A stretch of DNA of 64,000 nucleotides from Neptuniibacter pectenicola (GTDB lineage Bacteria > Pseudomonadota > Gammaproteobacteria > Pseudomonadales > Balneatricaceae), in contig NZ_LUTS01000003.1 in the NCBI RefSeq assembly GCF_001597735.1, positions 1 to 64,000 on the forward strand, in the 5' to 3' direction. The notes under the pieces were generated by a model. That model had not been told where the DNA came from. It saw only the letters and a list, made by a program, of their open reading frames with translations, and ran no database searches. This document shows, one piece after another, positions 2,741-37,823 of the stretch. How positions within the stretch are numbered: position 1 is the stretch's first letter; the number at the start of each line of letters is the position of its first letter. Position numbers and translations under genes: made by a program.

Positions 2741-3395
2741 GGTGGAGAGCAAATGGGACGCGCTGAGCACGCGAGAGCGTTCGTTAGTGCTGATAACGGC
2801 GGTGGTTGTGCCTATCGTCCTTATCTATATTGTCTTAATTGAACCGAGCATCATGAGCCTCAAACAGCAGCAGGCTAAGTTGGCTGGACTAGAAGCGAGT
2901 ATAGCGAGTCAAAATCAGGTGCTAACGCTTTTAAAGGCTAAAGAACCTGTTGATCCTAATATCGCTGCACGTGAAGGTTTAAAGCGCTTACGCCTAGAGT
3001 TAACGCAAGCCAATGATGAGATTAGACGGGCGGCAACGAACTTGGTCTCTCCTGATCAGATGTTGGCTATGCTCCGAGATGTTTTAAAAGGTGAGCAGGG
3101 TGTTGCTTTAGTCAGTGCTAGAAGCTTAGCGATTGAAACTTTGCAACTGGGTGCCGAGACCCAAAACGATGGGTCTGCCTCACCCGCACCACGTGCGTTG
3201 ATTTATGCCCACCCCTTTGAGATAGAGCTGGAAGGGAGTTATCAGGGTGTCTATGACTACTTACAAAAGATTGAACAATTAGAGGGCGTTTTCTTCTGGG
3301 ATACGCTGACTTATAAAGTTGATCAATACCCAACGGCGAAAGTAAAAATAAGAGTGCATACATTAAGCTCTGAAGCGAGGTGGCTAGGTGCGTAA
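2733..3395 (+). CDS. mshJ: MSHA biogenesis protein MshJ (PilO-like)
   Basis: A 220-residue PilO/GspM-like protein: a short cytoplasmic segment with WDALSTRERSL, one transmembrane helix (about residues 19-38, ending VLIYIVLIEP), a coiled coil, and a periplasmic ferredoxin-like domain. The start at 2733 gives an 8-bp overlap with the PilN-like gene and places the membrane helix normally; the longer reading from 2688 adds 15 residues without homology. It is expected to pair with the PilN-like protein as an inner membrane alignment subcomplex. Confidence 0.8.
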   Translation: MSKVESKWDALSTRERSLVLITAVVVPIVLIYIVLIEPSIMSLKQQQAKLAGLEASIASQNQVLTLLKAKEPVDPNIAAREGLKRLRLELTQANDEIRRAATNLVSPDQMLAMLRDVLKGEQGVALVSARSLAIETLQLGAETQNDGSASPAPRALIYAHPFEIELEGSYQGVYDYLQKIEQLEGVFFWDTLTYKVDQYPTAKVKIRVHTLSSEARWLGA

Positions 3396-10767: not shown

Positions 10768-11299
10768 TCTCGATAATCGGCTAAGGGTTATACAGCGAGG
10801 TTTCTCGCTACTTGAATTAGTTGTCACCCTTTTAATTATCTCTATTTTAATGGCGGTTGCGTACGCTAAGTTAGAGCAGTTGGCCGAAAAGGTAGAGCGT
10901 GTCTCCTTTGAGGGGAGCCGGAATAACATTCAGGCACAAGTCACATTGAAGGTGGCATACTGGTTTGCAGAGCAGCAACAACGTACCGCTGAACAGCTGG
11001 TAAAGGGTAATCCGATAGACCTTATTCAGCATATACCTGTGAATTATGCGGGTGAGCTGACCTACAGTGAGCTATGGGCCGCGCCGGGTGAGCATTGGTA
11101 CTTTATTTCTGATAAACAGTGGCTTGTGTATAAGGTCAAAAGGAATATTCATTTACAGAATGAATTTGAGCAGCACGACGTATTGCCTTTTCAATTAGAG
11201 GTGATGTTCCAAAATCAACATCAAGATAAAGGGTTGGTTGTTAGTGCAAAGTTACAACCACTTTACAAGTTTGGTTGGGAAGTGGATAGTGATGACTGA
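10760..11299 (+). CDS. mshF: MshF-position protein with a type IV prepilin signature
   Basis: A 179-residue protein at the mshF position. A short leader ends in Gly before FSLLELVVTLL, a class III prepilin cleavage and methylation motif with the conserved Glu5, followed by a single hydrophobic helix. The rest (KVAYWFAEQQ, NPIDLIQHIPVNYAGEL, WYFISDKQWLVYKVK) resembles MshF proteins. So it looks like an MshF that is also a minor pilin. The family is inferred from synteny and general architecture, so the symbol is tentative. Confidence 0.65.
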   Translation: MVNLDNRLRVIQRGFSLLELVVTLLIISILMAVAYAKLEQLAEKVERVSFEGSRNNIQAQVTLKVAYWFAEQQQRTAEQLVKGNPIDLIQHIPVNYAGELTYSELWAAPGEHWYFISDKQWLVYKVKRNIHLQNEFEQHDVLPFQLEVMFQNQHQDKGLVVSAKLQPLYKFGWEVDSDD

Positions 11300-15093: not shown

Positions 15094-15279
15094 AGCAATC
15101 TCCGATGGATTGGGGGTTAAATAGGCAGGCGCTATTCTACCAGTGAGCGGCCTTAGGCTCCATTGTTCTAGCATGAAGCAAAAAATTTCATTTTTGCTCA
15201 CTTCGCTATACAATTCGACCCTCAGAGTAAAAATAATACTAATTTGCTATTGGTCTGCTTTCAGACAGGAACACACTCT

Positions 15280-16050
15280 ATGCGCGTCATCACCTTCAAT
15301 GCACAAGGTATTGAACAAGCTGCAGAAAACGGCTTCTTCGATTGGATGGTCCAACAGGACGCTGATGTTATTTGCTTGCAAGATTTGCGCGCAAAGGAAT
15401 ATCAGCTCGATGATGAACGTTACCATCCCGAAGGCTATCACCCATTCTTTTTCGATGCATGGGAAGATGGTTATAGCGGCGTGGCGATCTACACCCGCGA
15501 GCTACCTAAAGCGATCATGACGGGCTTAGGCTTTGAACTCTGCGATCAGCATGGTCGTTTTATTCAAGCCGATTTTGAGCACGTAAGTGTTTCATCCTTC
15601 TTTATTCCTTCGGGGCTGAAGAGTGAGGAAGCACAAGCAGAAAAAGAAGCGTTTATGGTCGACTTCCTCGGCCACTTTAATAAAACCTTACGTAAGCGCC
15701 GTGAATTTATCTTTTGTGGGACCACTAACATTGCCCATAAAACGGTCGATTTGAGTAACTGGTATGCAAACCAAACGGTGTCCGGCTTTTTACAAGTTGA
15801 GCGCGACTGGATGGCTGAGATCTTTGACGAAATGGGGTATGTGGATGCCTTTCGCCAGATCAACAAGGCTGAACGTCAATTTAGCTGGTGGCCTGCCTAC
15901 AACCGTGCGCGGAAACTCAATGAAGGTGCGCGTTTAGATTATCAGATCGCTACGGCAAATCTGCGTAAAACGGTTAAAAATGCTCAAATCTATCGTGATC
16001 AATCCTTTAGTGAACACGCCCCGATTATTATTGATTATGATATTGGCTAA
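15280..16050 (+). CDS. crc: Catabolite repression control protein Crc
   Basis: A 256-residue exonuclease III-fold protein matching Crc, which acts with Hfq to block translation of catabolic mRNAs. The exonuclease III motif GDxN is replaced by CGTTNIAH, and the C-terminal motif reads SEHAPIII. Loss of the catalytic Asp is what separates Crc from true nucleases. Position between pyrE and rph is the Pseudomonas context. ATG at 15280 begins MRVITFNAQGI, the expected fold start. Confidence 0.88.
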   Translation: MRVITFNAQGIEQAAENGFFDWMVQQDADVICLQDLRAKEYQLDDERYHPEGYHPFFFDAWEDGYSGVAIYTRELPKAIMTGLGFELCDQHGRFIQADFEHVSVSSFFIPSGLKSEEAQAEKEAFMVDFLGHFNKTLRKRREFIFCGTTNIAHKTVDLSNWYANQTVSGFLQVERDWMAEIFDEMGYVDAFRQINKAERQFSWWPAYNRARKLNEGARLDYQIATANLRKTVKNAQIYRDQSFSEHAPIIIDYDIG

Positions 16051-16882: not shown

Positions 16883-16984
16883 GCCGGTCCTTTAATCAAT
16901 TTTCTAGTCAGTCATGGCGTGGCAGAGCGGCGCCAGACTGTTACAATTGTATTTAATAACGCATTTTAATCGAGAATGGATCAT

Positions 16985-17848
16985 ATGACACGCAGCATGA
17001 CAGCTTTTGCTCGACAGGAAGCCGAGCATGAATGGGGTTCCCTGAGTTGGGAGATCAGATCAGTTAACCATCGCTACCTAGAACCTCACTTGCGTTTGCC
17101 TGAAAACCTGAAAGAACTCGAAGGTTTTCTGCGCGAAAAACTGCGCAAAGCCGTTAGCCGCGGAAAAGTTGAATGTACACTGCGATTTAATCCTGAAGCC
17201 ACAGAGCAACAACTTGTGGTTAATAAACCTTATGCTAAAGAAGTTATTCAGGCCGCTGAGTCGTTACAAGCGATGGTTGAGAATCACCAACCTTTAGACG
17301 CTTTAGAGTTGTTACGTTGGCCTGGCGTTCTACAAGACACCAAATTAGATATGGATCTCGTTAAGAACTCAGCAAAAGCACTTTTTACCAAAGCGCTGGA
17401 TGACATGCTGGAAGGGCGAGGGCGTGAAGGTGTCGAGCTCGCGACATTAATCAATCAACGGTTAGACGCGATTAGCGCCATCGTGGCAGAAGTGCGCGAA
17501 AGCATGCCTAAAATCCTACAAAATCAGCGAGAAAACTTAGCCCAGCGCCTTGCTGAACTAAAAGCTGACCTAGATGAAGGTAGGTTAGAGCAAGAGATTG
17601 CATTACTGGCGCAAAAAGCTGACGTAGACGAAGAGATGGATCGTTTAGACACCCATGTTCAAGAAGTGCGCCGTGTTTTAAAACAGAAGGGGCCCGTCGG
17701 CCGCCGTTTAGACTTCCTTATGCAGGAGCTTAACCGGGAAGCGAACACACTCTCTTCAAAATCAATTGTCGCCAGCACTACCCAATGCGCAGTTGAACTT
17801 AAAGTGCTTATTGAACAGATGCGAGAGCAGATTCAAAACATCGAATAG
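16985..17848 (+). CDS. yicC: YicC family endoribonuclease
   Basis: A 287-residue YicC protein, the same length as E. coli YicC, a family now linked to RNA cleavage. The N-terminus RSMTAFARQE and WEIRSVNHRYLE and the C-terminal DUF1732 region (GRRLDFLMQELNREANTLSSK) are typical. The start at 16985 matches E. coli; a second ATG 9 bases upstream is possible. The last seven codons, encoding EQIQNIE, are the attachment site of the island that follows. The gene is intact at this left junction, so integration preserved the protein. In related genomes yicC is often close to gmk; here 15 kb separates them. Confidence 0.93.
   Translation: MTRSMTAFARQEAEHEWGSLSWEIRSVNHRYLEPHLRLPENLKELEGFLREKLRKAVSRGKVECTLRFNPEATEQQLVVNKPYAKEVIQAAESLQAMVENHQPLDALELLRWPGVLQDTKLDMDLVKNSAKALFTKALDDMLEGRGREGVELATLINQRLDAISAIVAEVRESMPKILQNQRENLAQRLAELKADLDEGRLEQEIALLAQKADVDEEMDRLDTHVQEVRRVLKQKGPVGRRLDFLMQELNREANTLSSKSIVASTTQCAVELKVLIEQMREQIQNIE
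17825..17847 (+). repeat. Left attachment repeat (23 bp), inside the end of yicC
   Basis: Identical to 24290-24312. It encodes the last seven residues of YicC plus the first two bases of the stop codon. Confidence 0.85.
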
Positions 17849-17885
17849 GTTTCTTGGTAGAAAGTTACCCGTCCAAGAATGTCTT

Positions 17886-17937
17886 AAAAGCCCCGTATTA
17901 CCTTGTGAAGAGCATTGAAAATACAGGGCTTTTTTTA
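17886..17937 (+). terminator. Terminator after yicC / at the island left edge
   Basis: AAAAGCCC-CGTATT pairs with AATAC-A-GGGCTTTT with one mismatch, followed by a T run. It lies about 40 bp into the island and could serve yicC or the convergent helicase gene. Nearby, CCCGTCCAA occurs twice (17868-17876 and 17943-17951). Confidence 0.7.
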
Positions 17938-18049
17938 TTTTTCCCGTCCAAATCGGTTTGCAGTTGTCCGTTATCTGCTGCTGTTTAAGTGGTGCCAGCT
18001 ATTTTTGCCTCCTCCATTATTTCAGAAACTTTAGAACCATCCATGATAG

Positions 18050-21000
18050 TTACCCCACAGCCAACTTAGCCGCCTGCTGCCACATAAAGTGAGGCATTGG
18101 CTCTTTTAACTGCCAAGTAATGCTCATCGGTTGTGAGCCTGTATGCGATACGTATTCCACTTCACCATAATTAACAAAACCCATAGTGCGGCCGTATTCA
18201 TCTTTGGTTTGTTCACGCACAAATAAAAACAGACGTTTACCAATATTTTGATGCTTGATGTACTCCAAACCACGCCCTTTGTCGGGCCTTGCGCTATTTT
18301 GCGACTGCCAGTGAAAGAGGTGTTCGTTAATCGCGTAATCGTGATACATAGTGGTGGGCGAAAATTGCTTTTCATTTTTGTTCAAGGTGACAAACATCAG
18401 TTCAATATTTTGAGCTTTAAGCGCAAACACACCTTCACGTGCTGGAGGTTGGCGCTCAAACGTAGTCGCACCAAATGCCACCAATATTTGCTCACGCGCA
18501 TAGCGAGCATGCAACTTTAATGAAACTTCAGGCAAGGCCTGCATTGTTGGTTGCTCATGCTTGGTTTTTGCTAGTTGCCAATTTAAGACATCCAATAATT
18601 CTGCTTTTAATTCACAAGAATTTAGTTTCGCTAAGCTCTGATCAATGGAATCGAATCCACATTCAGGCCCCGTTGTCTGCCAAAAATCATAATGGCACAT
18701 TAAGGCATAACGAGGGCTGCCGCCGTTAAGCATAAATTGAGTTTGGCAAAGCTGTTTTAAAAAACTTAAATAGGCATAATCATCACAGGTCAAAATTCGA
18801 TTATGGATGGCCTTTCTAAATATGTTCAGCAGATTTTCACCAAACGTATTTTCGTTGATTTCATCTTTGGCTTGCTGAACCAGCTGCGACCAGCTGCCTC
18901 GCTTATAAAGTTCATTCAAGTCGATATGAGGGTTTAGAGTTAAGAAATTCGCCAGCGTTAACGGCAGTGTGGAATGCTCTGGATACTGCCGGATCATCGC
19001 AACTAAACGCTTTAAGGTTAACGAAGCTTGGCGAATATTGCTGAGCACCATTTCTTGCGTGCGCTTGCTTAATTCAATGCGGCAACCCAGTGGCGCATGA
19101 GGGAAGCCTTGCTTTATTTCATCAGTGATCGCGCGATGACTTTTACCGACTAGAGCTCTAAATTTATTGGCAAAATCATATTCAGGACGTGAATTGCCAA
19201 CAAAATCCAACACGGTACAACATTCTTTGCCTTCGGCTAAGCGCAAACCACGGCCAAGCTGTTGCAAGAAAATGGTTAAACTTTCTGTCGGTCGTAAAAA
19301 CAGTAAGGTATCGACTTCGGGAATATCGACACCTTCGTTGAAGATATCGACCACACAGAGCACATTGATGCTGCCAGATCGAATAGCTTGTTGCTTTTGT
19401 TGCCGCTCATGGCTGTTATCACTGGTCAACACATCTGCGTTAACGCCCTTCAACAATAACTGGTGCGCCATATATTGAGCATGATCACGACTGACACAAA
19501 ACGCCAAGGCTTTCATTTGACTTATGTCGGTGACGATCTCCTGCAAACTCAGTAGTATTTTATCGAAACGCGCTTGGTTATGAGTATAAAGATTAGTGAG
19601 CTGCGCGATATCATAACGCCCACGACTCCAAGGGATCTTGCGCAGGTCGGTATCATCATCTATACCAAAATACTGAAAGGGGCAAAGATGGCGACGGTTA
19701 ATCGCTTCGGGCAAGCGAATTTCTGCCGCAATCACACCGCCAAAATCCGCTAAAATATCCCCCCCATCATGGCGCTCTGGTGTGGCAGTAAGGCCGAGTA
19801 ATATAACCGGTGAAAAATGCGCAAGCAGTGGGCGATAGCTTGATGCGGCAATATGGTGCACCTCATCAATCACAATGTAGTCATAATAGTCAGCCGTCAG
19901 GTTAAGCTGAGCAAGCTGATTGTTCAGCGTTTGAATAGACACAAACAATTGACGGTAGTGCTCTGGCGTATGCCCACCCACCCAAAGTTCACCAAAAGCG
20001 CCGTTGCGCAATACACCACGATACGCCGCTCTGGCTTGTTGTAATATTTCTTCGCGGTGTGCCACAAATAAAAAAGTGGCTTGCGGTTTTTGTTTAATAA
20101 AACGCGCAAAATCAAAGGCGGAAATCAGGGTTTTCCCTGTACCGGTTGCCGCAACCACTAAATTGCGAAAGCGCTGGTGCACACTGCGCTCAACGGCCAG
20201 TTGTTCCAATATGTCACTTTGGTGAGGAAACGGCGAGATATCAAAGAAATGCGTTGGGCTGGCCTCATAATCACCGCGCTGCTGGCTCAACGCTTTTTTG
20301 AGTTTTTCGCTACATTTTGCATCATCACTAAAATGCTCAAAATCATTAGAAGCCCAATAGGTTTCAAAGGTACTCAACGACTTATTGATAATGTGTGGAA
20401 TTTCTTGCGAAGTGATTTTTAAATTCCACTCTAAGCCATTGGTTAGTGCGGAACGCGACAGGTTAGACGAGCCTATGTAGCCAGTGTGATAGCCGGTGTT
20501 GCGCAAAAATAAATAGCTCTTAGCATGTAAACGTTCACGCTCAGTGTTGTAGCTCAGCTTCACTTGGGTATTGGGCAAACTGGCCAAATACTCCACGGCT
20601 TTGGCATCAGTCGCCCCCATATATGACGTGGTAATTATTTTTAGCTCGCGGCCGCTTGAGGTAAATTCTTCTAGCTCTTTGCGAAAAATCCGTATCCCCG
20701 CCCACTTAATAAACGACACCAACCAATAAATGGTATCCGCGGATAGAATCTCTCTTTTTAATTCAGATTCAAGGGACAAACCGGCATTGCTACCACAAAA
20801 CAGCTCACTTTGCGTTAAACCAGTTAGGGGGGAAATGTCCTTAATGTAATTTTTAAAATCGGCTGAGACCGGATTTTCGAGCTCATAGAGTGCGGTCAGA
20901 ATTTTACCTTGGCTAACAAGCAAATTGTCTTCGATAAAATCCTTATCTTGAATTTGTGTTTTTAACCATAGTAACAGCTGATTAGACAAAGCAATTTGTT

Positions 21001-21190
21001 GTTGCAATCGATCATCAGCGGCTGGAATGGAATCAATGGCGTGTTCAATAATGTGCGAGAGGAAACGAGATAACCAAGTCGATGCTTCACTGCTATTGAG
21101 CTCTCGTTCACCTACAAAGAATCGCTCACGGTCAATTCGACTAGCAATGAGCTGTGTTATTAGCTGTTCATAAATTCCTATTTGTTGCAT
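18050..21190 (-). CDS. PLD nuclease - SF2 helicase - DUF3427 protein
   Basis: A 1046-residue fusion. Residues about 140-290 form a phospholipase D-type domain with one HKD motif (LHAKSYLFLRNTG ... IGSSNLSRSAL). Residues about 320-700 are a superfamily II helicase: motif I ATGTGKT, motif II IDEVHH, motif III GLTATPER, and motif VI QQLGRGLRL. The last 300 residues match the DUF3427 region found in such proteins (COG3886/COG1061 fusions). These domains suggest DNA cleavage driven or guided by translocation, as in restriction-type defence; the target is unknown. It is 11 bp downstream of a wHTH gene and forms a two-gene unit in the island. The reading frame is intact, which argues against decay of this part. 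The biological role is inferred. Confidence 0.85.
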   Translation of the reverse strand: MQQIGIYEQLITQLIASRIDRERFFVGERELNSSEASTWLSRFLSHIIEHAIDSIPAADDRLQQQIALSNQLLLWLKTQIQDKDFIEDNLLVSQGKILTALYELENPVSADFKNYIKDISPLTGLTQSELFCGSNAGLSLESELKREILSADTIYWLVSFIKWAGIRIFRKELEEFTSSGRELKIITTSYMGATDAKAVEYLASLPNTQVKLSYNTERERLHAKSYLFLRNTGYHTGYIGSSNLSRSALTNGLEWNLKITSQEIPHIINKSLSTFETYWASNDFEHFSDDAKCSEKLKKALSQQRGDYEASPTHFFDISPFPHQSDILEQLAVERSVHQRFRNLVVAATGTGKTLISAFDFARFIKQKPQATFLFVAHREEILQQARAAYRGVLRNGAFGELWVGGHTPEHYRQLFVSIQTLNNQLAQLNLTADYYDYIVIDEVHHIAASSYRPLLAHFSPVILLGLTATPERHDGGDILADFGGVIAAEIRLPEAINRRHLCPFQYFGIDDDTDLRKIPWSRGRYDIAQLTNLYTHNQARFDKILLSLQEIVTDISQMKALAFCVSRDHAQYMAHQLLLKGVNADVLTSDNSHERQQKQQAIRSGSINVLCVVDIFNEGVDIPEVDTLLFLRPTESLTIFLQQLGRGLRLAEGKECCTVLDFVGNSRPEYDFANKFRALVGKSHRAITDEIKQGFPHAPLGCRIELSKRTQEMVLSNIRQASLTLKRLVAMIRQYPEHSTLPLTLANFLTLNPHIDLNELYKRGSWSQLVQQAKDEINENTFGENLLNIFRKAIHNRILTCDDYAYLSFLKQLCQTQFMLNGGSPRYALMCHYDFWQTTGPECGFDSIDQSLAKLNSCELKAELLDVLNWQLAKTKHEQPTMQALPEVSLKLHARYAREQILVAFGATTFERQPPAREGVFALKAQNIELMFVTLNKNEKQFSPTTMYHDYAINEHLFHWQSQNSARPDKGRGLEYIKHQNIGKRLFLFVREQTKDEYGRTMGFVNYGEVEYVSHTGSQPMSITWQLKEPMPHFMWQQAAKLAVG

Positions 21191-21201
21191 AAAAGTCCCT
21201 T

Positions 21202-21534
21202 TTATTCTAATGGCTGGATTAACAGCAGCATCGATTGATATTGCAGTTTTACCGCTAACCCATTTTGTGACTTGCGCATTTCAACTAAGTTGTACTTGCC
21301 TAGTGTTTTCAGTGTTCTCGATACATTACTCACTGCTCGTCCCGTGAGCCTAGCCAGTTCAGTTACCGACTGCGGTTGTTGTTCTGCAATCACTTTTAAT
21401 AGGTGCTGGTTTTCTTTTGATAGCACATTGGCAACCGATTTAAGTGAGTCAAACCAAATATCGACAGGGTAATCAGGGTTGGGCGTTTGACCTTTAATGC
21501 CTATTACGCAACGCGATTGTTTGACGTTTTTCAT
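21202..21534 (-). CDS. Winged-helix transcriptional regulator (COG4190/HVO_A0114-like)
   Basis: A 110-residue protein with a MarR/ArsR-like winged helix: PQSVTELARLTGRAVSNVSRTLKTLGKYNLVEMRK is split as a helix-turn-helix (about residues 54-75) plus a wing. It resembles the small HVO_A0114/COG4190 group often placed ahead of toxin-like or nuclease genes. The ATG at 21534 is chosen; a TTG at 21552 would add six residues. The helicase gene starts 11 bp after its stop, so it probably controls this operon. Confidence 0.7.
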   Translation of the reverse strand: MKNVKQSRCVIGIKGQTPNPDYPVDIWFDSLKSVANVLSKENQHLLKVIAEQQPQSVTELARLTGRAVSNVSRTLKTLGKYNLVEMRKSQNGLAVKLQYQSMLLLIQPLE

Positions 21535-21552
21535 ATTCTGTTTATTTCTCAA

Positions 21553-21971
21553 AAGCTTAGTAATACGTTACAAAGGTATACAGATAGATAAGCGACACAT
21601 CTTATCAGCCGTTGATAATCGAGCAAGTTTATTTTCTGGTTTTAATGTCCATATAGGGTAAACGAAAAATCGTTGCTGGCGACTTTGGTTTGTTACTGTT
21701 GTAGCTGAGTGGCTGGGGTCATTCTTTATTTCCTCACTGATCTGTTAAGTGCAGCTAGGAGTTTGCATGACCATTATTAGGAGTTAAACGGACGCAGTAG
21801 GCAGATAAATGCCCAGATCGTGCAGCTTTCTGAGGGTATTGCTAACAACCTGCCCCAAAAGCCCAAGGGGTAAGTGGAGTGTTAAAACACATGGAGTATG
21901 AGGCAAAGCATAAAAGTGAAACTATAACTTCTTTATCTGCTGAAAAATGAAAATATAGTTTCACTGACTCA
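21553..21971. other. Intergenic region between the wHTH-helicase unit and hipA
   Basis: About 420 bp without a convincing gene. An in-frame stretch at 21781-21873 on the plus strand encodes 30 residues ending IANNLPQKPKG and stop, perhaps the tail of a lost gene. GTAATACGTTAC at 21560-21571 is a possible operator for the wHTH gene. The right end holds a 12-bp inverted repeat listed separately. Confidence 0.5.
21915..21965. repeat. 12-bp inverted repeat downstream of hipA
   Basis: AGTGAAACTATA (21915-21926) and TATAGTTTCACT (21954-21965) are perfect inverted copies around a 27-base loop, ending 6 bp from the hipA stop codon. It may end the hipBA transcript, but there is no T run. A terminal-repeat remnant is the alternative. 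Confidence 0.7.
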
Positions 21972-23237
21972 TTAAACGTTAAACGCCGATTCTTTCATGG
22001 CCTGCTGTGCTCGGCTGATCCCTAGGCGCTTAGCAACGGTTTGCCATTGCTTAACCGCCATTAATACTTCATCGTAAATTTGCGTGGCTTGGGTTTGCGA
22101 AAGTCGGAAGAAGTCTTTCACATCAAAGGCTAGCTGGTAGTCTAAGGCGTTGTCTGCATCGGTAATATTCAGATGCAGGCCATGCTTACCCACTATCGGA
22201 TTTAAATCATAAGCGGGTGATAACTTCCAACCCTTCTTGGTTAATAAAAATCCATGATTACGCAGGTGATCATCGGTGTTGGACACCGCAATATTAAACA
22301 CGATACGTCGCCATAACTGTGCTAAATCGGCTTCGGTTTGTGCACCAGAATTGGAAATAAATTCAGCAATTTCTAAGTAGCTGGCACCTTGAGATTGTTC
22401 ACCATCATACTTTTCGTCTACAAAATGGCGAAGCTGTGTCATGGCCGATGAAAAATGCAGCCGTTTTTCACCGTCGCGGTCAAACCGTTTGGTTAAAAAG
22501 GTATGGTGCTGTGACGAAAATTGCCTGATCTCACTTGGATACATGTCAATCCCTGCCGCCAACGCCAATTCATAACAGACCATCTCCCACGCGCCCACAT
22601 CATGGGTATCGTTTAAATTGGGAAACTTAGCAATCCACAAGTGGCCTTGTTCATCTGCCACACAAGCCTTGGGCCTAGCACCGCCTAGTGATGAGCCTGG
22701 AGAAATCAGCATTTTCAACCAGCGGTAATACTCGTCACTGTCGATGTTATCGTCTTTTTCAATCTGCATTGCTGCGTGCTCTAGTTCTCGCAAATAAGCC
22801 ATTGGCGGCGCAGCAAACTCAGCGTTGTCATCTAAGAACGCAGCCGAGCCTGTTCGCTTAAATCGAATACCACCCATCCGGTAAGAGTCGTGCACGCCCA
22901 GCAGGTAATCTAGCTCGTTTAATCGACTTGTTGCTCGAATGCCTTTGCGCGCTTCAATGGCTGCACGCCGCTGCATTAAAATACGCCCCCATCTATCAGG
23001 CGATGAATCAAGAAATGCACGAAAGTTTTTATTGGCTTCATCGTTGTAGAGTTCACCGGAGTGAAGCGTCAGAATTGGATCAATTTGCAAGCGATAGGCT
23101 GAAGTTAAAAATACTTTATCGTAGGCAAAACTAAACACACCACCTCGGCTTGAATCGCTGTAAGAAAGCAGCCCTATTAGCAAAGGCGCCTCAATTGGCT
23201 GCCAGTCGGCATAGACTTCGACGATTTCACGGCTCAT
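21972..23237 (-). CDS. hipA: HipA family serine/threonine kinase toxin
   Basis: A 421-residue HipA-like kinase. The N-subdomain holds IGLLSYSDSSRGGVFSFAYD; the Gly/Ser loop is SPGSSLGGARPKA; the catalytic loop is NTDDHLRNHGFLL (Asp and Asn as in E. coli HipA NTDRHLKNF); the metal-binding motif is LSPAYDLNP. HipA kinases phosphorylate targets such as glutamyl-tRNA synthetase and halt growth; the substrate here is unknown. All catalytic motifs are present, so it is probably active. It overlaps hipB by ATGA. Confidence 0.9.
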   Translation of the reverse strand: MSREIVEVYADWQPIEAPLLIGLLSYSDSSRGGVFSFAYDKVFLTSAYRLQIDPILTLHSGELYNDEANKNFRAFLDSSPDRWGRILMQRRAAIEARKGIRATSRLNELDYLLGVHDSYRMGGIRFKRTGSAAFLDDNAEFAAPPMAYLRELEHAAMQIEKDDNIDSDEYYRWLKMLISPGSSLGGARPKACVADEQGHLWIAKFPNLNDTHDVGAWEMVCYELALAAGIDMYPSEIRQFSSQHHTFLTKRFDRDGEKRLHFSSAMTQLRHFVDEKYDGEQSQGASYLEIAEFISNSGAQTEADLAQLWRRIVFNIAVSNTDDHLRNHGFLLTKKGWKLSPAYDLNPIVGKHGLHLNITDADNALDYQLAFDVKDFFRLSQTQATQIYDEVLMAVKQWQTVAKRLGISRAQQAMKESAFNV

Positions 23238-23539
23238 CTTGAACCTTCCAGCAATTTTATATTTTGCAGCTTGATGCCGACTTCATCATGGGCGGCCATT
23301 TCTGCAAAATTACTCTCCATGCCAAGAACGGCCATAACCTTTAAGTAAGTGCCTATGGCAACGCCCGGATCACCTGCGAAGACTTTGTTCACGGTTTTAT
23401 GGTCAAAACCAGTACGTTCACACAGCAGCTTTTTGGTAAAACCACGTCTTTTCATCGCCAACAGTAAGTCCTCACCAAAATGAGTCAGGATTTTGCGCTG
23501 CTTTGGAAACAGTACATTGTGCAAATCACGCTTAGCCAT
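23234..23539 (-). CDS. hipB: HipB-like antitoxin, Xre family
   Basis: A 101-residue Xre-type helix-turn-helix protein (LLCERTGFDHKTVNKVFAGD, about residues 38-57) upstream of hipA with a 4-bp overlap, the standard antitoxin-first order. It is expected to bind and neutralise HipA and repress its own promoter through the three operators at 23553-23648. The helix-turn-helix follows a longer N-terminal arm than in E. coli HipB. Confidence 0.82.
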   Translation of the reverse strand: MAKRDLHNVLFPKQRKILTHFGEDLLLAMKRRGFTKKLLCERTGFDHKTVNKVFAGDPGVAIGTYLKVMAVLGMESNFAEMAAHDEVGIKLQNIKLLEGSR

Positions 23540-23552
23540 ATCACCAACCCAG

Positions 23553-23648
23553 GGGACTATATTCCCATTATTTAATCATTACTGGGAATATAGTCCAACT
23601 TTGAAGTCCAGACAACTCTAACATGTGAAATAAGGGACTATATTCCCA
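23553..23648. promoter_or_regulatory. Three hipBA operator copies
   Basis: GGGACTATATTCCCA occurs at 23553-23567 and 23634-23648 and, reversed with one end base changed, at 23583-23597. Each is a near-palindrome (GGGA...TCCC). Centres are 30 and 51 bp apart, near whole helical turns, so bound antitoxin dimers could sit on one DNA face. The first copy is 13 bp ahead of the hipB start codon. Confidence 0.85.
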
Positions 23649-23753
23649 CTTTACTGAATATTATCGGATTAATATCCCGCTTTTAGATTTGGTTTGCGCG
23701 TTGGCCAAGGCGATGATGTGAATCCCTGAATGCCAAAGGCCATCAAATTACAC

Positions 23754-23804
23754 TTTTATGCGCATAAAAATGTAAAACTCTGCACTTTTCTGCGCGCAAA
23801 AGTG
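23754..23804. promoter_or_regulatory. Pair of similar palindromes, orphan operator
   Basis: TTTTATGCGCATAAAA (with flanking ACAC and ATGT) and CACTTTT-CTGCGCGC-AAAAGTG share the form ACTTTT-TGCGC-AAAA and lie with centres 32 bp apart. Tandem palindromes three turns apart usually mark a repressor-controlled promoter. No gene starts next to them now. Confidence 0.5.
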
Positions 23805-23944
23805 TGAAAAGCAAGTTGAACACTCATCAGTGTATTTTACTGAACGGGCAAATGCAGCGGTTAGACATCTACGCAAGGTGACTTTAAAGGTAACAATCTG
23901 TAGATCTTGATGCCTGATATTCGACACTTAGTCTTATTTCTATT

Positions 23945-24001
23945 GGATACCATTGTATCCATATCGAGCTTATATCTATTAAAATGGATGCCATAATGTC
24001 C
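23945..24001. promoter_or_regulatory. Two related 16-bp near-palindromes
   Basis: GGATACCATTGTATCC and GGATGCCATAATGTCC match at 12 of 16 positions, each with GGAT/TCC ends, and their centres are 41 bp apart (four turns). Probably binding sites of one regulator. Confidence 0.5.
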
Positions 24002-24198
24002 ATTTCAGGCTAGGTGAGCTTTCTGCTGACTCATTACTATCGCGTAGAACCAGTAAAAAAATAGCAAAGCTATGTTGACGGAAATCGTGCTCGATAAAGC
24101 CCTTCAAAACTGCTATTTTTAGATCCTAACAGCAAGCATAAAAACGGCGTTGTTTTTCCATTGCTAACCACTAAGATTTAGTAAAAGCCAGAGGCAAG

Positions 24199-24219
24199 TG
24201 GTGGGCAGTTTGGTGGGCA
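24199..24219 (+). repeat. Two TGGTGGGCA direct repeats, possible integrase arm sites
   Basis: TGGTGGGCA at 24199-24207 and 24211-24219, 12 bp apart, about 70 bp inside the right attachment repeat. Spacing and position resemble arm-type binding sites of tyrosine recombinases. Confidence 0.45.
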
Positions 24220-24252
24220 AACAAGCATTTTTGAACGGTTTCTTTTCGATAA

Positions 24253-24292
24253 CTCATTGAGTTTGTTAGGGTCTAGACCGCTACTCAATGAG
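24253..24292. repeat. Nested palindrome abutting the right attachment repeat
   Basis: CTCATTGAGT (24253-24262) and ACTCAATGAG (24283-24292) are perfect inverted copies. The loop between them contains the perfect palindrome GGTCTAGACC. The right arm overlaps the first three bases of the attachment repeat. Confidence 0.65.
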
Positions 24293-24312
24293 CAGATTCA
24301 AAACATCGAATA
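24290..24312 (+). repeat. Right attachment repeat (23 bp)
   Basis: Perfect copy of 17825-17847. Followed by A rather than G, so the yicC frame would still stop here (TAA). Confidence 0.85.
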
Positions 24313-24335
24313 ACCACAAGCTGACCTGAGCGCAA

Positions 24336-24363
24336 AAAAACGCACCCATAGGATGCGTTTTTT
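24336..24363. terminator. Bidirectional terminator after the right island edge
   Basis: AAAAACGCA and TGCGTTTTT arms around CCCATAGGA, giving T runs on both strands. It serves the dat gene and is probably the original yicC terminator displaced by the island. Confidence 0.82.
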
Positions 24364-24381
24364 ACGATAGACGATACCTAC

Positions 24382-25245
24382 TTAGAAGTCATATTTCGTA
24401 TCGGTATAGATCTGGAACGCTTTTTCCCAAACTTCGCCCACTTCACCGTCGCCTACCGGTTTGCCGTCAAGTTGAGTCACGGGTGCGATCTCTTTTGATG
24501 AGCTGGTAATCCATAGCTCATCTGCATTGCGGACTTCGTCCATTGTGACCACACGCTCTTCTACTTTTAGCGAGCCGTCAGCTCTTAGACTGTCCAAAAT
24601 AATACGGCGGGTAATACCCGGTAGGATTTGGTTGTCCTGAATCGGTGTGATGACGACGCCATCTTTTACGATAAAGGCATTACATGAGCTGCCTTCTGTT
24701 AATTCGCCGTCGGCGTTGTACAGTAGGGCTTCATCATTTCCGGACGAGTAGCCTTCTTGGAAATGAATCACGTTACCTAGTAGCGCAGTCGATTTGATGT
24801 GGCAGCGCTGCCAGCGAAGATCTTCAGTGCTGATCATACTGTATTGAGTTACTTTCGCGCGATCTACAGGCTCTGGATCTTTAATTGGGAAGGTGAAAGC
24901 AAAGACCGTTGGTTCAACATTCTCTGGGTAGGCGTGGTAGCGCTTTACGTCAGTTCCGCGTGAGATATGAACATAGACACCTAGGTTAGCTGCTAAGTCG
25001 CTGTTGCGTGCAACAAGGTCGTCTAGAAGGGCTTTCCACTCATCGGCTGTTTTAGTGCATTTGATTTCAATTGCTGCAAGGCCATTGATCATGCGTTCGA
25101 TGTGGGGCATTAAGCCGACAGACTTACCGTTGTAGTAAGGGATAACTTCGTAGATGCCATCACCGAATAGAAAGCCTCGGTCTAGAGGAGAAATTCGTGC
25201 TTCTGACAGAGGTTGATATTCGCCATTCAGGTATGAAATGCTCAT
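24382..25245 (-). CDS. dat: D-amino acid aminotransferase
   Basis: A 287-residue class IV PLP aminotransferase of the D-alanine transaminase type, which interconverts D-alanine and 2-oxoglutarate with pyruvate and D-glutamate. The N-terminus PLDRGFLFGDGIYEVIP and the PLP-lysine motif CHIKSTALLGNV are diagnostic, as is ELTEGSSCNAFIV. Start has AAGGAAAG upstream. It is monocistronic but neighbours the D-glutamate cyclase operon, which suggests a shared role in D-glutamate balance. Branched-chain or aminodeoxychorismate activity is less likely from these motifs. Confidence 0.88.
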   Translation of the reverse strand: MSISYLNGEYQPLSEARISPLDRGFLFGDGIYEVIPYYNGKSVGLMPHIERMINGLAAIEIKCTKTADEWKALLDDLVARNSDLAANLGVYVHISRGTDVKRYHAYPENVEPTVFAFTFPIKDPEPVDRAKVTQYSMISTEDLRWQRCHIKSTALLGNVIHFQEGYSSGNDEALLYNADGELTEGSSCNAFIVKDGVVITPIQDNQILPGITRRIILDSLRADGSLKVEERVVTMDEVRNADELWITSSSKEIAPVTQLDGKPVGDGEVGEVWEKAFQIYTDTKYDF

Positions 25246-36071: not shown

Positions 36072-37823
36072 TTACTCGCCTAAGGCCAGCCCCTCTCTTC
36101 GATTGTCGACCCCGCTCTCCCACAGGCCGTTATCGGTACGGCGAAACGCATGTAATCCACTGTTTAAATCACGTATTTTTATTTCATGGCCCATGTTGCT
36201 TAATGGCTCTGCCAGCTGCTCTGCGGCCGTGTCCGCCTCTAATTCGGTAATGCCATTACGGTTACTGACGTGGGGGGTGTTGATCGCTTGCTGAAGCGGT
36301 AGGTCTGTATTCAGCATCATTAATAAGCTTTCTGCGACATAGTTAATGATACGGCTGCCGCCGGGCGAACCCACTGCCGCATATAAGTTCCCCTCCGCAT
36401 CAAAAACCATAAAAGGCGACATGGAGCTACGGGGGCGTTTCCCCGGCTGTACTCTATTCGCAATGAGCTGACCTTGTTTCTCAGGTGTGAATGAGAAATC
36501 GGTTAACTGATTGTTGAGTAGAAAGCCGCCCACCATGAGGGTTGAGCCAAATGCCATCTCAATACTGCTGGTCATTGAGGCTGCATTACCCCATTGGTCG
36601 ACAACGACAAAATGGCTGGTGGAGGGGAGTTCCGGTGATTGGTCATCTCGCCACGCGCTATTCATGCCTTCAGGCTGGCCTGGTGCGATCGTACCCGCAT
36701 CCTGCGTAGATTGGATCAATGTGGCCCGCTGCTGGATATAGTCTGCATTTAAAAGTCCCTCGACAGGGACATCGACAAAATCGCTATCAGCGAGGTAGCG
36801 GCCCCGATCGGCATATGCGAGGCGTGATGCTTGGGTAAATAGGTGTTTTGCGAGCGGACTGTGGGGCGGAAGGGCTGAGTAATCGGTATGTTCTAATAAG
36901 GTTAATATCTGTAATACAGTTACGCCACCCGAGGTTGGTGGCGGAAAGCCGCAAACCTTATAGGTTTTATAAGGCTGACAGATGGGGGTGCGCTCTATCG
37001 CTTGATACTGTGCTAGGTCGCGACTACTGAGTAGCCCCGGGTTGTCTTTGATTTCCTGTATACGGGCAACAATCTTTTTGCCTAAAGTGCCTTGGTAGAA
37101 GGCCGAACTGCCCTGTTGAGCAATCAGTTTTAAGCTGCTGGCTAAGGCGGGGTTTTTACGTAGAAAGCCGACCGGAAGCGGAGAGCCATCTTCGGCATAA
37201 AAGTAATTGCGTGCTTCAGGGTATCGGTTTAAACCGGGGTTGATACCGCTGGCGATCAGTTTATGTAGCCGTGGGCTGACCTTAAACCCTTTTTCGGCTT
37301 GTACGATGGCACCTTTAAACAAAGGCTTCCACGGCAGCTTCCCGTGTTTAGTGTGTGCTAGTTCCAGCATTTTCAGCACGCCGGGCGTGCCGACTGAGCG
37401 ACCTCCTACGAGTGCATCAACCCAGCGCATCGGCTCTTTATTGCGATAGAAGAGTTTCTCATCCGCCGCGAGGGGCGCTGTTTCCCTACCATCTAACGCG
37501 GTTAGTTTGTTCTCCGCCTGGTCCCAATAGAGTAAAAATGCGCCACCGCCAATACCCGATGATTGGGGTTCGACTAAGGTGAGCATGGCCTGAATTGCAA
37601 CCGCAGCATCGGCGGCACTCCCGCCCTGTTGTAATATGCTTAAACCGACACGGGTCGCAAGGGGGTTTGCGGTTACAACAAGCGAGGGGTAAGCATTTGA
37701 TGCTATATTGGTTTGTCGCCCAGTGGCGTTTTCGGGTGCGAGATCTTCATCAACTGCATAGGCACTTGAAAGCGACAATGGAACAATGCAGAGTAGGGCG
37801 CGAAGTATATGCAGTAATTTCAT
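36072..37823 (-). CDS. ggt: Gamma-glutamyltransferase
   Basis: A 583-residue periplasmic enzyme that transfers or hydrolyses gamma-glutamyl groups of glutathione. It has a signal peptide (residues 1-23, ending SSAYA). The autoprocessing Thr is in STSHFVVVDQWGNAASMTSSIE; the Gly-rich GSPGGSRIINYV and SSGIGGGAFLLYWD regions are also present. It would supply cysteinylglycine and glutamate and can feed the 5-oxoproline pathway encoded nearby, though a direct link is inference. Confidence 0.93.
   Translation of the reverse strand: MKLLHILRALLCIVPLSLSSAYAVDEDLAPENATGRQTNIASNAYPSLVVTANPLATRVGLSILQQGGSAADAAVAIQAMLTLVEPQSSGIGGGAFLLYWDQAENKLTALDGRETAPLAADEKLFYRNKEPMRWVDALVGGRSVGTPGVLKMLELAHTKHGKLPWKPLFKGAIVQAEKGFKVSPRLHKLIASGINPGLNRYPEARNYFYAEDGSPLPVGFLRKNPALASSLKLIAQQGSSAFYQGTLGKKIVARIQEIKDNPGLLSSRDLAQYQAIERTPICQPYKTYKVCGFPPPTSGGVTVLQILTLLEHTDYSALPPHSPLAKHLFTQASRLAYADRGRYLADSDFVDVPVEGLLNADYIQQRATLIQSTQDAGTIAPGQPEGMNSAWRDDQSPELPSTSHFVVVDQWGNAASMTSSIEMAFGSTLMVGGFLLNNQLTDFSFTPEKQGQLIANRVQPGKRPRSSMSPFMVFDAEGNLYAAVGSPGGSRIINYVAESLLMMLNTDLPLQQAINTPHVSNRNGITELEADTAAEQLAEPLSNMGHEIKIRDLNSGLHAFRRTDNGLWESGVDNRREGLALGE

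Follow-up and report, generated by a model that had tools for sequence, protein, structure and literature searches.

What is the 6.5-kb block of DNA that lies between two perfect copies of a 23-bp sequence at the 3′ end of yicC in Neptuniibacter pectenicola, and how did it come to stand there without a recombinase gene of its own? The block is part of a 64,000-nt stretch (assembly GCF_001597735.1, contig NZ_LUTS01000003.1, positions 1–64,000), here called the window. The original prediction for this locus left a choice between a decayed island and a small element that borrows its integrase. The comparisons described here favour decay: the block is very probably a relic of a yicC-specific integrative island, in a state resembling a cis-mobilizable element (CIME).

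The repeat, GAGCAGATTCAAAACATCGAATA, occupies 17825–17847 and 24290–24312, and the two copies are identical at 23/23 positions with a spacing of 6465 bp, exactly as had been claimed. In the whole 3.63-Mb genome the 23-mer is found at only these two places at up to 3 mismatches, and a reversed control pattern is found nowhere. By a rough uniform-base estimate, the chance expectation for a repeat pair of 23 bp in 64 kb is ~2e-5. The target gene, yicC (16976–17848, plus strand), encodes 290 aa with YicC-like N and C domains, 90 % identical to the yicC product of Neptuniibacter caesariensis MED92. The first repeat copy is formed by the 23 bp that precede the final base of the gene, and it terminates the gene with TAG (17846–17848). 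The second copy, also on the plus strand, continues as GAATAACC, with ACC after the core, and here the yicC frame would close with TAA, so that the predicted frame closure holds. Insertion at the yicC 3′ end with a repeated core is the arrangement of yicC-specific integrative islands, and the two copies are the attL and attR cores of such an island. No tRNA genes were found in the window.

Each exact core lies beside an island end that is common to intact islands at yicC in relatives, which bears out both the ends and the target gene originally proposed. The outer left end (17848–17967) is identical at 117/118 positions to that of G003 and at 102/107 to that of G004, two genomes of the same genus, and at 100/117 to that of Amphritea opalescens. 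The right end (23868–24289) contains two GGTGGGCA repeats, at 24200–24207 and 24212–24219, and is kept in G014 (Marinobacterium lacunae AK27), G131, G150 and both right ends of G004; Escherichia coli E14 is 91 % identical to the window over 24090–24314. The position of the attR core relative to the right end and host flank is as in G004 (core at 37206) and E. coli E14 (67034). The host flank (24313–25245, minus strand) holds the class IV aminotransferase gene daat (24382–25245), which is 97–98 % identical in G003 and G004, and the attR core of G004 is followed by the same flank. A terminator-like inverted repeat in the outer left end and another after attR were recognized by eye; promoter and terminator predictions for the window scarcely differed from shuffled expectation and were set aside.

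The proposed comparison with an empty site could be made in another member of the island family. In the empty site of E. coli K-12 MG1655, yicC runs into GAATAACTCGTAAC. In the occupied site of E14, attL reads GAATAG followed by the island left end and attR reads GAGTAACTCGTAAC, so that core and host flank are as predicted. The window has the same arrangement, with TAG at attL and TAA at attR.

The reported lack of a recombinase gene is likewise correct, as no integrase match lies inside the window. All five Phage_integrase matches of the genome (G000) are outside it, at C127:287.5k, C127:343.7k, C149 and two places on C24. What remains is a collapsed left arm with an integrase leader (17968–18039), which retains no integrase codons and shows a net loss of ~144 bp against G003. 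This inner left end aligns to A. opalescens at 62/66 positions without gaps, and to G003, G004, G097 (Spongiibacter marinus DSM 17750) and G299 at 54/63 with gaps. The leader lies upstream of the family integrase start residue, for which the evidence is the start annotated by RefSeq in E14 and alignments of relatives that begin at residue 18. Intact left ends of G003, G004, G097, G299, G014, G402 and the first G150 unit carry five GGTGRGCA repeats, against four in G323, three in the second G150 unit, one in G131 and zero in the window and in A. opalescens. These repeats are probably integrase arm sites, since the family integrase carries the arm-DNA-binding domain PF13356.

A second scar lies at about 21656–21860 (minus strand), where a degraded coding start and upstream region align to the 5′ portion of the G097 and G003 alpA genes; G402, G323, G035 and E. 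coli E14 also match the window from 21656, and an AlpA Pfam match is present in G004. Thus, the island has no yicC-specific tyrosine integrase of its own, and a degraded 5′ remnant is all that is left of its excisionase (recombination directionality factor, AlpA type). With two deletions evident against intact relatives, one of the left arm and integrase gene and one of alpA, the ‘decayed island’ alternative gains direct support. Comparable truncations are seen in G131 (integrase residues 3–140, alpA 1–23) and G150 (integrase 1–168 and 3–83).

A third candidate scar was dropped. An ATP-binding protein gene sits between matches to 23806 and 23868 in G022, G150 and E. coli E14 and is missing from the window; both G004 units, G003 and G131 align to the window through this point and lack the gene as well, so that its absence is a module difference that occurs beside intact integrases too. 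A TTTTATGCGCATAAAA-type palindromic pair at 23742–23812 precedes this gene in G022, G150 and E14 and is present in the window without it.

Islands that retain the lost functions are widespread. Relatives of the G004 integrase at 1e-30 or better occur in 63 of 390 genomes of the order. Full-length frames at 98–99 % identity are found in G299, G097, G014, G402 and G003 (the last with one stop), G323 has one at 84 %, and fragments are present in G150 (two) and G131. The integrase follows yicC in 9/9 of the fetched regions with this integrase type (49–100 % identity). The order yicC, core, left end, integrase, cargo, alpA, right end, core is shared by G097, G014, E. coli E14 and the first G004 unit. 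In G097, an island of ~16 kb combines counterparts of the window restriction gene (91 %) and winged-helix gene (93 %) with an intact integrase and alpA, with yicC, core and left end before them and a second core at 5 mismatches. No hipBA match was found in the G097 island. For the cargo, G097 is the nearest parent type.

The same integrase, at 97 % amino acid and 95.6 % DNA identity to that of G004, is found in four E. coli genomes (E14, E15, E16 and E32, from chicken), the only ones among 5426 at ≥80 % coverage. Their yicC island, intact and ~23 kb in E14, has the family left end, integrase, alpA and right end; unlike the window island, it carries type I restriction and HigB-like and HipA-like pairs. 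Separately, a tyrosine integrase gene lies beside yicC in E. coli strain 165 (NZ_CP020509.1:84422–85681).

Between the cores lie four genes, all on the minus strand, so that the accessory content first described (winged-helix protein, nuclease-helicase and hipBA) is all present. The largest (18050–21190) encodes 1046 aa and combines a PLD nuclease (PLDc), a ResIII/SF2 helicase and DUF3427 (Pfam) in a single protein, the composition of the PADLOC class mREase_IV; PADLOC names it as such (PDLC03659, E=9.4e-222), a predicted type IV, modification-dependent restriction enzyme. Full-length relatives at 91 % identity are found in G097 and G405. The adjoining gene (21202–21552) encodes a MarR-like winged-helix protein of 116 aa (HVO_A0114, E=1.6e-20; 93 % in G097, 88 % in G405), a probable regulator. 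The toxin kinase gene hipA (21972–23237) is full length (421 aa; HipA_C, E=1e-53) and 95 % identical to those of G003 and G004. The antitoxin gene hipB (23234–23539, 101 aa) matches HTH_26 at 20.7 bits, slightly under the cut-off of 22, and is 99–100 % identical to those of G003, G004, G402, G405 and G467. The two genes overlap by 4 bp, and a HipA kinase domain with an adjacent helix-turn-helix antitoxin gene identifies a HipBA pair. Upstream of hipB, at 23553–23648, GGGACTATATTCCCA occurs twice together with an inverted copy; similar repeats follow hipB in G405 and G155, and they are a probable HipB operator.

Non-synonymous (dN) and synonymous (dS) distances are low in ratio for both modules. 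Against G004, hipA has a dN of 0.022 and a dS of 0.18 (dN/dS ~0.12), and hipB has a dN of 0 against both G004 and G405. The restriction gene has a dN/dS of ~0.05 against G097, with a dS of 0.94 to G097 and 0.78 to G405.

The history most consistent with these data would begin with an integrative island of the G097 type. As the remnants show, one deletion then took the integrase gene and left-arm repeats, leaving the leader, and another most of alpA plus whatever adjoined it, leaving the degraded 5′ part. The type IV restriction module and HipBA pair are left as full-length frames with low dN/dS. Such an island would no longer be able to excise alone. HipBA, by analogy with GI21 (below), and restriction activity may favour its retention. 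Because the left arm has been lost, the response to a foreign integrase would be weak or nil; an incoming yicC integrase could at most mobilize the island weakly, in trans or within a tandem array.

The neighbourhood of yicC and daat was found in only two of 11 genomes searched, G003 and G004, and both sites are occupied. These are the closest relatives (yicC 99 and 98 %), with ~34 kb of island DNA between yicC and the same aminotransferase gene and, immediately behind yicC, a frame for a tyrosine integrase of 434 aa, intact in G004 and with one stop in G003. The window matches both without a break through yicC and the outer left end, and again through hipBA and the right end. G004 holds a tandem array: a core at 3121, an integrase-bearing unit, a core at 23136, an integrase-less hipBA unit, a core at 37206 and the host flank. 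Relative to the window core, the second and third of these cores have 4 and 5 mismatches. G003 yielded a single core, and where attR would be expected it has ~12.5 kb of other DNA. The second, integrase-less G004 unit also encodes Z1, DUF4420, AIPR, HATPase and C5-methylase proteins, a defence-like cluster with relatives that follow yicC in G035.

Three points weigh against decay of an island at this site. An empty site in this species was not found among the 11 genomes searched. The identity of the window cores could mean recent activity; the G004 cores, by contrast, have diverged from the window core. Finally, purely local decay does not explain why A. opalescens shares the integrase-less left end.

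A possible, if rather doubtful, alternative is that the block is a domesticated defence locus, in which the host keeps restriction and HipBA as useful functions and integrase loss was favoured for fixing the genes in place. The intact frames and low dN/dS fit such a history; however, the purifying selection mostly predates integrase loss and is no proof of current use. The distribution of the restriction gene bears on the same point. It is present in 18 of 390 genomes of the order at 1e-200. Of the 17 genomes other than G000, the surroundings were fetched for 12 (G074, G222, G281, G300 and G389 being left out); yicC is on the fetched stretch in six (G022, G097, G155, G286, G367 and G405) and not in G020, G150, G199, G238, G241 and G359. 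Among eight yicC-linked restriction genes (G000, G022, G097, G155, G286, G367, G405 and G467), only that of G097 is accompanied by the family integrase type, which fits this reading. Likewise, the yicC sites of G405 and G155 have no integrase but do have the restriction gene, the winged-helix gene and HipBA; in G405, yicC and the restriction gene are directly adjacent, and hipA is preceded by two transposase-like frames. Retention is nevertheless not strict, as G467 has a disrupted hipA and a truncated winged-helix gene, and the winged-helix gene of A. opalescens is a fragment only.

Two further observations were made in this group. In G222 (C17), near-identical nucleotidyltransferase-like genes (10843–11220 and 15202–15579, reversed) flank an island-like block after yicC. 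In G241 (C32, 3778), a core-like sequence and left end are present on a fetched stretch that lacks yicC, a possible secondary site or rearrangement.

Somewhat less probable again is a non-autonomous element that is still mobile, using enzymes (integrase and excisionase) supplied by related yicC islands, either in trans or while carried in a tandem array. Here A. opalescens ANRC-JH13 provides the main evidence. Its own yicC carries the left end in the same form as the window, including the collapsed arm and integrase leader; the inner segments align without gaps, as given above, and against intact left ends the two share the deletion and at least six substitutions, though their yicC genes have only 68.7 % DNA identity. 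In a family survey of 116 genomes the left end was found in eight, and the collapsed form only in G000 and in G420, where it has the same contig coordinates as in A. opalescens. The integrase-less form was therefore probably exchanged between Neptuniibacter and Amphritea. The window left end itself looks mosaic, as its outer part is near G003 and its inner part near A. opalescens. The identical window cores, the integrase-less G004 unit that lies between two cores behind an integrase-bearing one, and the two truncated-integrase units in tandem in G150 also fit continued mobility.

Several findings, however, weaken the idea of a borrowed integrase: no close integrase was found in G000, whose best-matching protein is 26 % identical to the family integrase (C127:287676), or in A. 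opalescens, which has no match at all, and both the left-arm repeats (zero, against five in most intact islands) and AlpA are gone. The 26 % match was considered as an own-genome source and rejected, being part of a different element (C127:286263–288620) in which the integrase is paired with an AlpA-like gene and which has no relation to yicC; the C24 matches are short or broken frames. In A. opalescens, what seems to be an insertion falls at a contig break, with the rest of the restriction gene on a different contig, and the part of the contig that was read (19.9 of 23.1 kb) yielded no right core. Additionally, the synonymous distance between the window and A. opalescens restriction genes is at saturation (dS 3.3), the window gene being closer to those of G405 and G097, so that only the left end looks recently shared; this argues against the whole block having been transferred recently. 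Homologous recombination could also have moved the left end. The original ‘borrowed integrase’ alternative is thus weakened; in its favour stands the occurrence of the same integrase-less left end in another genus. That the integrase-less form spreads as a unit, its left end having moved between Neptuniibacter and Amphritea through the integrase and AlpA of resident or incoming yicC islands, is a possible but rather improbable reading.

Vertical descent of a relic from a common Neptuniibacter/Amphritea ancestor is not favoured either. The restriction genes are as distant as old orthologues would be; against this, the restriction–HipBA block is absent at yicC from the 8 other same-genus genomes fetched (G001, G002 and G005–G010), and the collapsed form is found in just 2/116 family genomes. 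That the repeat arose from the yicC end by chance or by gene conversion, with the block as ordinary core genome, has nothing beyond the missing integrase to commend it and is already refuted by island ends common to integrase-bearing islands in other families and E. coli; the absence of the block from those 8 genomes also speaks against it.

By its published definition, a CIME derives from an ICE or IME that lost its transfer and integration genes but kept attL and attR, and it can be mobilized in cis or trans. In its attachment sites and integration genes the relic in the window works like one, with both attachment sites retained and a leader remnant in place of the integrase; related tandem units occur in G004 and G150, and CIME decay followed by tandem accretion is a scenario outlined in PMC5704250. 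Unlike the CIMEs described there, the relic has lost left-arm sites besides the integrase, and its parent is an integrase-bearing island. The parents have an integrase and AlpA, and no relaxase was found among the 10 G004 proteins scanned with Pfam.

The window island adds to an already known type of yicC-specific island. As summarized in PMC8978831, GI21, GISpuPO1 and GISspANA3 of Shewanella and GIPspSM9913 share with it the yicC target, restriction cargo, a HipA–HipB pair by attR and, in its parents, an integrase and AlpA-type excisionase; the likeness is one of description, and in the window integrase and excisionase are gone. In GI21, hipA precedes hipB and HipA has 448 aa, an order reversed in the window, where hipB precedes hipA and HipA has 421 aa; GI21 HipAB is described as stabilizing a composite island (PMC8978831). 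Vibrio mobilizable genomic islands (MGIVflInd1, MGIVchUSA1 and others) and SGI1-like integrative elements are also described at the yicC 3′ end with tyrosine integrases of the yicC-specific family and are mobilized by SXT/R391 or IncC elements (PMC8409611, PMC5704250). Defence cargo in yicC islands is further mentioned for Shewanella, Alteromonas and Proteus (PMC12016545). In the titles and abstract openings of literature on yicC islands and Neptuniibacter genomic islands, no description of the family in these hosts was found.

At 95.6 % DNA identity, the integrase family reaches from marine Oceanospirillales-type bacteria to chicken E. coli, and the yicC site thereby connects very different hosts. 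If integrase-less forms did spread as units, the site would host both autonomous islands and defence-bearing parasites, in tandem as in G004 and G150. As a relic, the N. pectenicola island illustrates clearly, next to its parents, intermediates and other relics, how a mobile defence island can become a fixed chromosomal locus: integrase, arm sites and excisionase are gone, and the restriction and toxin–antitoxin genes stay. The collapsed left end held in common with another genus makes the travel of such relics a directly testable question.

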